NCBI GenBank assembly: GCA_017883235.1
Contig: JADGNY010000004.1
Coordinates: forward strand, 78,161-126,419
Direction: 5' to 3'
Length of the DNA stretch: 48,259 nucleotides
Origin: Thermoanaerobaculia bacterium
Lineage (GTDB): Bacteria > Acidobacteriota > Thermoanaerobaculia > Gp7-AA8
Part shown: one piece after another, positions 4,864 through 31,497 of the stretch
How positions within the stretch are numbered: the first letter of the stretch is position 1
How the letters are laid out: the number at the start of each line of letters is the position of its first letter
Position numbers and translations under genes: made by a program
Notes under the pieces: generated by a model
What the model saw: the letters and a program-made list of their open reading frames with translations, nothing else
Database searches by the model: none
What the model was told of the DNA's origin: nothing

Positions 4864-5018
4864 CCGGCACGGCCGGCGGCGTTGGTTGCCCAAGGCTCCG
4901 CCGGCAGTGGTGCAAGAACGTTTCTACGGCGCAGGCTCCTAGGAGTCTGCGCGGCATAACGATGAAAGCGAAGATGGTGGCCGAGCCTTAGGCAACCAGC
5001 GCAGCCGGCCGTGCCGGC
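4862..5018. repeat. Palindromic repeat of the GCCGGCACGGCCGGC family (two facing copies)
   Basis: Arms 4862-4905 and 4979-5018 are near-perfect reverse complements; each holds GCCGGCACGGCCGGC, then GTTGGTTGCC (or its variant) and AAGGCTC. Between them is a second, smaller palindrome at 4930-4953 centred on CTCCTAGGAG. The left arm begins at the second base of the lipoprotein stop codon. A single copy of the same unit sits after dnaN at 20438-20477. No gene fits in this 180-bp gap. Confidence 0.85.
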
Positions 5019-30065: not shown

Positions 30066-30932
30066 TCAGCGTAGCGCGCGAACGAGCGCGCGTGACACGG
30101 CACGGTCCGACGCGGCGTCGAAGGCCGCGAACATCGGGCCGGAGTTCACTTCGAGAAAGAGCATCCGCTTCGTCTTCGGGCATTGCTTGAAATCGGCGGC
30201 GGCGAACTCGAGGAAGAGTGTGTCGGTGAGTTTGCGCAGGCCGGCGACGAGATGGCGATCATTCTTCACGGGCTCGACGCGCGCCCTGCTGTCGGTGCGG
30301 TAGTCGAGCGTGCTGGCGACGACGTGGAACGAGACGAAGCGATCACCGGCGCGGTAGATCCGCAGCTCGGGTGGGACGAGCGTCTCCTGCACGATCGCTG
30401 GTGACGCGAGCGCGTTGTTACGACGGGGCGCCCCGGCGAGTGCAGTGTCCAGCGGCTGTGTGTATTCGCCGCCGGCAACCGGCTTCACGACGCGATCCCG
30501 CATCGCTTCGAGCGCGCTTGCGTCGTTCGAGATCACGGTCGCTGGGATGTCCAGTCCGGATTGACGTGCGAGGAGGAGCTGCTGGGGCTTGAGCAGGTGC
30601 GCCGCGTGATGGCGATTGAGCAGACGCACGTCACGATGCGCCATGGCCCACGACAGCACGGTCGTGTACCACGCATACGCACGCGCGGCCGAGGGAGTGC
30701 TGAAGACGTCGTGGCGGAGAAACACGGCGCGTGGCGCGACGATCTCGCCGTCGATCGTCAGGACGTCGTCGGCGAGATCCCAGGTCAGCACGGGATGCGT
30801 TTCGCTGCCTGCGAGGAGGCGCACGTGCGGCGTGCGCTGATGCTCGAGCTCCTGCAGCAGCGAGTGAATGTTCAAATCGGCGTCGCCGCCGGCGACGAGA
30901 ATCGGCTTAGAACGAGCCGAAAGGATTTCCAC
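30066..30932 (-). CDS. Graspetide-type ATP-grasp ligase (MvdC/MvdD/PsnB-like)
   Basis: A 288-residue ATP-grasp enzyme. The N-terminal pre-ATP-grasp part is followed by NRHHAAHLLKPQQLLLARQS and GLDIPATVISND, the layout of graspetide ligases. Nucleotide-binding Lys150 lies in RVVKPVAGG, the hinge is VQETLVPPELR with the family's P-x-x-E-x-R motif (187-191), and the metal-binding Glu261 and Asn263 are in FLEVNSGPMFAAFD. These enzymes activate Glu/Asp side chains with ATP and join them to Thr/Ser or Lys, making macrolactones or macrolactams. Its start (GTG 30932) lies inside the 3' end of the precursor gene, so the two are coupled. RimK-like roles are less likely given the partner. Confidence 0.85.
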   Translation of the reverse strand: MEILSARSKPILVAGGDADLNIHSLLQELEHQRTPHVRLLAGSETHPVLTWDLADDVLTIDGEIVAPRAVFLRHDVFSTPSAARAYAWYTTVLSWAMAHRDVRLLNRHHAAHLLKPQQLLLARQSGLDIPATVISNDASALEAMRDRVVKPVAGGEYTQPLDTALAGAPRRNNALASPAIVQETLVPPELRIYRAGDRFVSFHVVASTLDYRTDSRARVEPVKNDRHLVAGLRKLTDTLFLEFAAADFKQCPKTKRMLFLEVNSGPMFAAFDAASDRAVSRALVRALR

Positions 30933-31437
30933 CTCCGCTTTCGCCGCCGCGCCCTTCCTCTTCGCCGACGACGAGCGTGGTCAGCGTCTCATTCGGCTTC
31001 TTCTTCTTCGCGCCCGCTCGCGCGGCGGCGGTGCTGAGCGTCTGCAGCTTGTCCTCTTCGCCGATGGCCAGCGTGGTGATCGGCGGATGTTCGCCGCGCT
31101 TCGGAGTCGGATCCTCTTCGCCGATCGCCTCGGTGGTCGGACCTTCTTCGCCCACACGCATCGTGGTCGGGCCGCCCTCTTCGCCGAGGCGCTTGGTGGT
31201 CGGATCCTCCTCGCCGAGGCGCTTCGTCGTGCCGGGACTCTCCTCGCCGAGACGGAGTGTGGTGAAGATCGTGCCGCCGTTCTCCTCGCCTTCGATGAGC
31301 GTCGTGACCGGCACCTCCTCGCCAACGGCCAAGGTCGTGAGAATCGTTTCTTCGCCGATCACCATGGTGGTGATGCGATTGTTGCCGGCTGCCGCTGCTC
31401 GGGGGGACGCTTTCTTGCTCGCTTTCTTTGTCGCCAT
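30907..31437 (-). CDS. Graspetide precursor with ten TTxxxGEE core repeats
   Basis: A 176-residue peptide from ATG 31437, with AAGGAG eight bases upstream. A short Lys/Ala-rich leader (MATKKASKKASPRAAAAGNN) precedes repeats of TTxxxGEE at residues 23-30, 34-41, 45-52, 59-66, 70-77, 80-87, 91-98, 101-108, 121-128 and 153-160. A degenerate unit (TPKRGEH, 111-117) and a Lys-rich spacer interrupt the last ones. TTxxxxEE is the core of plesiocin, a group 2 graspetide in which Thr side chains are esterified to Glu. The ATP-grasp partner overlaps the 3' end. No cleavage protease or transporter gene is adjacent. Confidence 0.85.
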   Translation of the reverse strand: MATKKASKKASPRAAAAGNNRITTMVIGEETILTTLAVGEEVPVTTLIEGEENGGTIFTTLRLGEESPGTTKRLGEEDPTTKRLGEEGGPTTMRVGEEGPTTEAIGEEDPTPKRGEHPPITTLAIGEEDKLQTLSTAAARAGAKKKKPNETLTTLVVGEEEGRGGESGGGNPFGSF

Positions 31438-31497
31438 TTGGGACTCCTTACTGACGGAGTGTTGCATACGTGCCAGTTCCCTACCCGGAATGTGGCG

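Follow-up and report, generated by a model that had tools for sequence, protein, structure and literature searches.

Locus and gene layout

The window analysed here, a 48,259-nucleotide stretch of a Thermoanaerobaculia genome, carries a two-gene locus on its minus strand, in which a precursor gene (30907-31437) overlaps the gene for an ATP-grasp ligase (30066-30932). The original prediction, made from the letters of the DNA, had both genes right in their coordinates, strand and overlap. The features of the locus are these:

31443..31449, minus strand: ribosome binding site AAGGAGT of the precursor gene, read directly, five bases 5′ of the ATG
30907..31437, minus strand: precursor gene, ATG at 31437 and stop at 30907-30909, 176 aa with ten TTxxxGEE units
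31372..31437, minus strand: N-terminus (residues 1-22), short, rich in Lys and Ala and lacking the leader motif usual in graspetides
30958..31371, minus strand: core region, units 1-10 (residues 23-160), from the unit pattern count
31087..31107, minus strand: decayed unit TPKRGEH (residues 111-117), from a unit scan of the protein
30928..30957, minus strand: Gly-rich linker EGRGGESGGG (residues 161-170), read from the translation
30910..30927, minus strand: C-terminal tag NPFGSF (residues 171-176), putative recognition element for the ligase; a [P/A]FGxF end is found in 5 of 6 related precursors
30066..30932, minus strand: ATP-grasp ligase, 288 aa, GTG start, 26-base overlap with the precursor gene

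The GTG taken as the ligase start (30932) lies 26 bases inside the precursor gene, and the choice of this start is not certain. Pfam places gyrA, DUF507, DUF255, XerC and glycine cleavage genes in the neighborhood (24-36 kb of the window). XerC lies directly behind the ligase, and the glycine cleavage operon is on the opposite strand, followed by DUF255, DUF507 and gyrA. Pfam and the list of open reading frames revealed no RiPP-type transporter or protease beside the gene pair in these 12 kb, nor any NHLM-type transporter, and no secretion system or recognisable export gene lies near the pair in the window. Neither the precursor nor the ligase matched a Pfam family at E 1.

Repeats of the precursor

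The precursor contains exactly ten TTxxxGEE units, as first counted, beginning at residues 23, 34, 45, 59, 70, 80, 91, 101, 121 and 153. Shuffling the protein 20,000 times gave a mean of 0.012 units and a maximum of 2. A DNA pattern coding for TTxxxGEE has 14 matches in the 6.9 Mb genome, ten of them here and four scattered, and a reversed control pattern has three. The units follow one another in steps of 11, 11, 14, 11, 10, 11, 10, 20 and 32 residues. A spacing of 10 to 14 with a longer last gap had been predicted, and this describes every step except the 20, which equals two steps of 10 spanning a decayed unit. That decayed unit (TPKRGEH) is present where it had been noticed, as is the Lys-rich spacer before the tenth unit.

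Thr-Thr is kept as strictly as Glu-Glu across all ten units, and the three residues between Thr-Thr and the Gly vary by unit (MVI, LAV, LIE, LRL, KRL twice, MRV, EAI, LAI and LVV). A search of the precursors against PDB sequences yielded nothing useful. The core motif of plesiocin is TTxxxxEE, so the units can be called plesiocin-type as far as the core goes. Plesiocin has four core repeats (PMC12291112), and the window precursor exceeds it with ten, as had been pointed out. Graspetide cores in general have Thr/Ser and Glu/Asp at a fixed spacing, encoded next to the ligase, and the window precursor conforms to this.

Family and ancestry of the ligase

The nearest solved relative of the ligase is PsnB, the plesiocin enzyme, in sequence (phmmer 3.3e-15; profile search over the full length, 1.1e-27) as well as in structure, which bears out its assignment as a graspetide-type ligase. 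In the profile search PsnB was followed by MdnB (5ig8), PruB (9bou), AMdnB (7m4s), CdnC (7mgv) and MdnC (5ig9), with RimK last at 0.0068, some 25 orders of magnitude behind PsnB. The AlphaFold model of the ligase has a pLDDT of 90.9, and complexes of PsnB with its precursor rank first in Foldseek (4.9e-19 against PsnB with a minimal precursor). NCBIfam TIGR04187 (ATP-grasp ribosomal peptide maturase) matches with an E of 1.7e-15, below the curated cut-off. K150, R191, D247, E261 and N263 are invariant among 16 aligned ligase sequences. The graspetide-type motif named in the original prediction is present in a shorter form than the P-x-x-E-x-R given there: it reads P-x-E-x-R (VPPELR), with R191 invariant and the E replaced by N in the phage enzymes described below and by D in PsnB.

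A RimK-type peptide ligase would form no rings but extend the Glu side chains of each GEE with added amino acids. Such enzymes share the fold, and VIA-align of the ligase model gave PsnB a Z of 22.9 (3.5 A, 269 residues), RimK 21.1 and LysX 20.8. With differences of about 2, fold alone separates PsnB and RimK poorly. The profile scores do separate them, and on these scores we rejected a RimK-type ligase; the grouping with RimK that would have spoken against the original prediction is not seen. The strict retention of Thr-Thr alongside Glu-Glu and the same Thr/Glu spacing in bacteria and phages also argue against an enzyme concerned with Glu only. We therefore hold amino acid addition to be very improbable, and the evidence supports a ligase of the graspetide macrocyclase type, closer to the macrocyclases than to RimK or LysX.

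A tree of 30 ligases, built by a careful method, unites the window ligase with four bacterial relatives (94/86) and this set in turn with nine phage ligases (100/99). Outside this clade, PsnB groups with two ligases of the same phylum as the window (L003 and L004; 100/99). Taken together, the bacterial, phage and PsnB sets are separate from the microviridin-type ligases and the others (91/87). A quick tree of 41 rows gave the same groups but united the three sets weakly. A tree in which the bacterial set is made to join PsnB is worse by 13.9 log units (AU p 0.094), so the grouping of the window ligase with PsnB is disfavoured, not rejected. The label plesiocin-type is accordingly not extended to membership in graspetide group 2.

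The PsnB-like ligases of L003 and L004 lie beside Cys-rich precursors (L003:768-1004, L004:804-1046) with an N-terminal leader MRELFIEELEEV..GG. Each precursor has a single core, TTMACCEE, and they are 47 and 46 residues long if the start is MRELF.

Bacterial relatives

A match to the ligase was found in 2 of 60 related genomes, the source genome included. The pair is absent from both same-genus genomes and from all 15 same-family genomes searched, and is thus accessory; a weak match in one same-family genome (G014) is of another ligase lineage. Within the phylum, 13 of 396 genomes match at E 0.001, this ligase type being limited to the source genome and one other (G058), after which the next best match is 3e-20. 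Within the class, 9 of 148 genomes match a five-row profile at 1e-5, and three score above 450 bits. Four genomes of one family of the class (f90; G464-G467) have two to five ligase-profile matches each, some of them partial (L023, L024, L026, L028, L029, L031-L038). Those placed in the tree fall outside the window ligase lineage, except L019.

A contig scan with a two-sequence alignment narrowed 183 pattern matches to four loci (L015-L018). The scan with the single ligase sequence gave 75 pattern matches and no relative among them, and tblastn found no match in plasmids or INPHARED phages. The four contigs, all from metagenome-assembled genomes by title, are labelled Acetobacteraceae (L015), Acidobacteria gp7 (L016), Gemmatimonadetes (L017) and Pyrinomonadaceae (L018, where the ligase is cut at the contig end). 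L016 is the same contig as L019, from a genome of the window's class (G464), and by this label the window is acidobacterial too. With the window and L002 there are six distinct bacterial loci, and in all six a TTxxxGEE protein lies directly upstream of the ligase. The number of exact units is 10 in the window, 23 in L002, 3 in L015, 10 in L016, 2 in L017 and 10 in L018. In L015 the units sit near the C-terminus of an RTX protein (PF00353; ORF ending at 4948), right before the ligase, and this protein is probably a secreted carrier. The L018 precursor (L018:4129-4950) begins with about 140 extra residues, Pfam-negative, followed by its ten units and an SPFGTF tail.

The gene that follows the ligase encodes an RTX/CAP protein in L015 and an EamA transporter in L017; L018 is cut. 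In L002 and L016, HopA1 and LxmK-like kinase genes overlap the end of the ligase gene by 4 bases (L094:4455-6593, minus strand, for the L002 locus, where the two are fused; L016:4499-6453), as in class V lanthipeptide pathways. Units of the form TTTxxGEE number 21 in L002 and 7 in L016, with none in the window, L015, L017 or L018. The third Thr of these units, present at two loci only, might be dehydrated, and the two loci are possible hybrids of graspetide and class V lanthipeptide systems. The HopA1 and kinase genes were rejected as part of the window system, where XerC adjoins the ligase instead. The only HopA1 match of the window genome lies on another contig, beside a kinase assigned by eye. 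There, a kinase, HopA1 and a LanC-like gene stand in a row (L096:3957-7322, contig C95; kinase and LanC by eye) and probably form a class V lanthipeptide cluster.

One decayed unit and a patchy distribution are what might be expected of a decaying or silent remnant. Both reading frames are intact, however, with a ribosome site, ten intact units and conserved active-site residues, and the pair has been kept on contigs labelled Acidobacteria, Gemmatimonadetes and Acetobacteraceae. This makes a remnant extremely improbable.

The C-terminal tail

The window precursor ends in the tail GGESGGGNPFGSF, which closes with GGGNPFGSF and was missed in the original prediction. Five of the six bacterial precursors end in a like manner, with NPFGSF, NPFGGF, GPFGRF, SPFGTF or SAFGEF, and in three of these five a Gly-rich stretch precedes the tail. 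Six loci carry the evidence for a tag, and by title four are from metagenome-assembled genomes. Of the ORFs in loci L001-L093 that are bounded by stops and at least 60 codons long, 4216 in number, only the five precursors have an FGxF end (the set includes overlapping loci, and three of the eight rows with this end are duplicates). The 6.9 Mb genome has a single coded PFGxF-stop, that of the precursor; a second match to the pattern reads TGG and is no stop. The sixth precursor, the RTX protein of L015 with its three units, ends in DHDFWSA, without FGxF.

The leader motif Phhx(1,2)h occurs in about half of graspetide precursors, and conserved leader residues often fall within the first 30 (PMC8939145). 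By eye, the motif is absent from the N-terminus of the window precursor. The original prediction had described a short Lys/Ala leader unlike the usual ones; the usual motif is indeed missing, and the arrangement is better read as no leader and a conserved C-terminal tag. The L017 precursor, MDTTKFFGEEEPPMTTHAEGEEDPWGGYEAVEASAFGEF, has 39 residues and begins MDTTKFFGEE, with AGGAG before its ATG. Only M-D precedes its first unit, which leaves no room for an N-terminal leader.

These observations bear on whether the pair is an ordinary plesiocin-type graspetide, in which the short N-terminal Lys/Ala stretch recruits the ligase and the C-terminal PFGxF is incidental or otherwise used. The core motif is like that of plesiocin, a start of M[A/P]xKK is common to 4 of the 6 bacterial precursors, and the AU test does not reject a grouping with PsnB. 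The precursor of L017, with no leader to offer, still ends in FGxF; that of L015 has no KK start; and outside the cores only FGxF was found in common at five loci. The shared M[A/P]xKK would allow for a minimal N-terminal signal, but we consider recruitment by an N-terminal leader quite unlikely. As the simplest reading, we propose that this bacterial ligase lineage naturally bears its recognition element at the C-terminus of the precursor.

Phage relatives

A profile-guided scan of IMG/VR gave 16 loci with relatives of the ligase. In L050:2559-5867 and L058:1-2719 the ligase, of which L058 contains only the end, is immediately followed by a large protein whose units include TTQAMGEE, TTMAVGEE, TTAAFGEE and others like them. 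A reverse scan with exact coded TTMAMGEE gave 23 contigs (L071-L093), some of them near-copies, and all 23 have two to eight units of the form [TS]T-3 residues-GE[EDNQ] in one ORF. Two of these 23 carry a ligase directly beside the unit protein (L077:3912-5899; L091:8361-10113, minus strand), which brings the phage contigs with this arrangement to four. L076 and L086 are parts of ligase records (G506 and G501). Of the seven ligase records of at least 17 kb, six contain a unit protein (G501, G504, G506, G507, G508 and G512), those of G507 and G508 being near-identical; none was found in G502, which was read almost whole. Further sister ligases or unit proteins lie on L065:7918-9195 and L066/L068. 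The Thr/Glu spacing is identical in bacterial and phage substrates.

In part the phage genes lie in the head module. In L063:535-1524 (minus strand) the core gene and the portal gene share 4 bases, and a terminase belongs to the same run; in L091 the core gene has two virion structural proteins as neighbours and a DNA-ejection protein a few genes further along. A graspetide-type modification of phage proteins, in part of the head module, is possible. If true, it would be a type of protein modification in phages for which we found no report in open-access literature text.

An FGxF end was found in no phage core protein, some of these ORFs being cut at contig ends. NPF is present within 7 of the 14 non-redundant core proteins of the phages, against 2.0 expected, a count reached by 3 of 2000 shuffles in a post-hoc comparison, and the other 7 lack it. 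PFG shows no enrichment in the same proteins (4 of 14 against 4.0 expected), and NPF is not among their 40 most enriched tripeptides. NPF as a motif joining the bacterial tail and the phage proteins is suggestive at most, and we did not retain it.

The phage substrates and the RTX protein of L015 have units without a C-terminal tag, and the units are embedded in large unrelated proteins. Both facts would suit a ligase that recognises the TTxxxGEE units themselves and needs no tag, with FGxF serving as a signal for secretion, anchoring or partner binding. The tag, however, resembles RPFG, which truncation mapping named the likely key recognition sequence of the fuscimiditide leader (PMC13003496, 2026), and the window has no secretion system near the pair for such a signal to serve. 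Recognition by the units alone is in our view unlikely.

Proposed mechanism

On balance, we favour a two-gene graspetide-type system as the probable explanation: the ligase would be recruited by the C-terminal tag of the precursor and would staple its units into a multi-headed chain. This reading starts from the two genes, the repeats, the family and fold of the ligase, the conserved tail and the lack of the usual leader motif. Ester formation, the pairing within units, tag binding and the activity of the product are what we infer from them.

The ligase would bind the NPFGSF tag at the tip of the flexible Gly-rich linker, and the linker would let any unit reach the active site. ATP-dependent phosphorylation would then activate the side chains of both Glu in each TTxxxGEE unit. 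Joining both Glu to both Thr would make up to two esters per unit, in a hairpin-like double ring, as in plesiocin, which is described with two esters per repeat unit (PMC12291112). The whole precursor could carry up to 20 esters, a change of about -360 Da, and some Thr/Glu pairs may stay unreacted. The tail would stand in for the N-terminal leader of other graspetides and leave the N-terminus free. Since no RiPP-type transporter or protease lies beside the pair, the product is probably a long multi-headed stapled chain and not a set of single released peptides.

The product would most likely act through its ring loops, as a protease inhibitor. The loop residues differ among units, as would be fitting for an inhibitor with several target proteases. 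The potency of plesiocin is reported to rise with the number of cyclised motifs (PMC13097080).

A broader reading, which we put forward tentatively and at somewhat less than even chance, is that this branch of ligases consists of protein staplers outside the scheme of leader, core and release, making ester hairpins in the repeats of whole proteins in both bacteria and phages. The bacterial enzymes would act mostly via the C-terminal P-F-G-x-F tag, once with an extra N-terminal domain, and on an RTX protein without the tag. In phages the substrate would be a protein from the module for head and packaging, and the window would be one bacterial member of the branch.

If recruitment through the tag is true, it would provide a compact handle by which stapled repeats could be added to one end of a protein whose N-terminus stays free. 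Mining by N-terminal leader motifs may overlook such precursors, among them the 39-residue protein of L017.

Comparison with known systems

The window pair resembles plesiocin and PsnB, of graspetide group 2, in having tandem TTxxxxEE units and one ATP-grasp ligase, PsnB being the nearest solved enzyme. The two systems differ in that plesiocin has the smaller set of repeats, while the window ligase joins the phage enzymes and its precursor has a C-terminal PFGxF tag in place of the usual N-terminal leader. An NHLM-type transporter, described as frequent in group 2 (PMC13097080), is not found beside the window pair.

Fuscimiditide (ThfA/ThfB) offers a parallel for the tag. Its leader, with R-P-F-G, can recruit the ligase from the C-terminal side: engineered as a C-terminal follower, it remains functional, with the rate roughly halved (PMC13003496). 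That construct is engineered, with a 67-residue leader and another core, whereas the window has a natural, predicted tag of six residues on a Gly linker. If the prediction is true, nature already has the engineering step published in 2026, a graspetide ligase recruited from the C-terminus, and achieves it via a six-residue tag.

In the updated RODEO survey (PMC13097080), graspetide groups 34 and 35 often have long precursors with repeating motifs, as here, and group 35 clusters hold only a synthetase and a precursor. On the main-text description of these groups, which is the basis of our comparison, they may include bacterial clusters of the window type. The multi-core microviridin AMdnA/AMdnC likewise has one ligase for several cores in one chain (PMC5934393). 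It differs in having three cores and an N-terminal leader, and its solved paralogue AMdnB is on another branch of the tree. A multi-core graspetide is already a known kind. A natural C-terminal recognition tag in graspetides has no report that we found in open-access literature text. As far as that literature shows, what would be new here is this predicted tag, the candidate leaderless precursor that carries it, and the putative phage branch of the same ligases.
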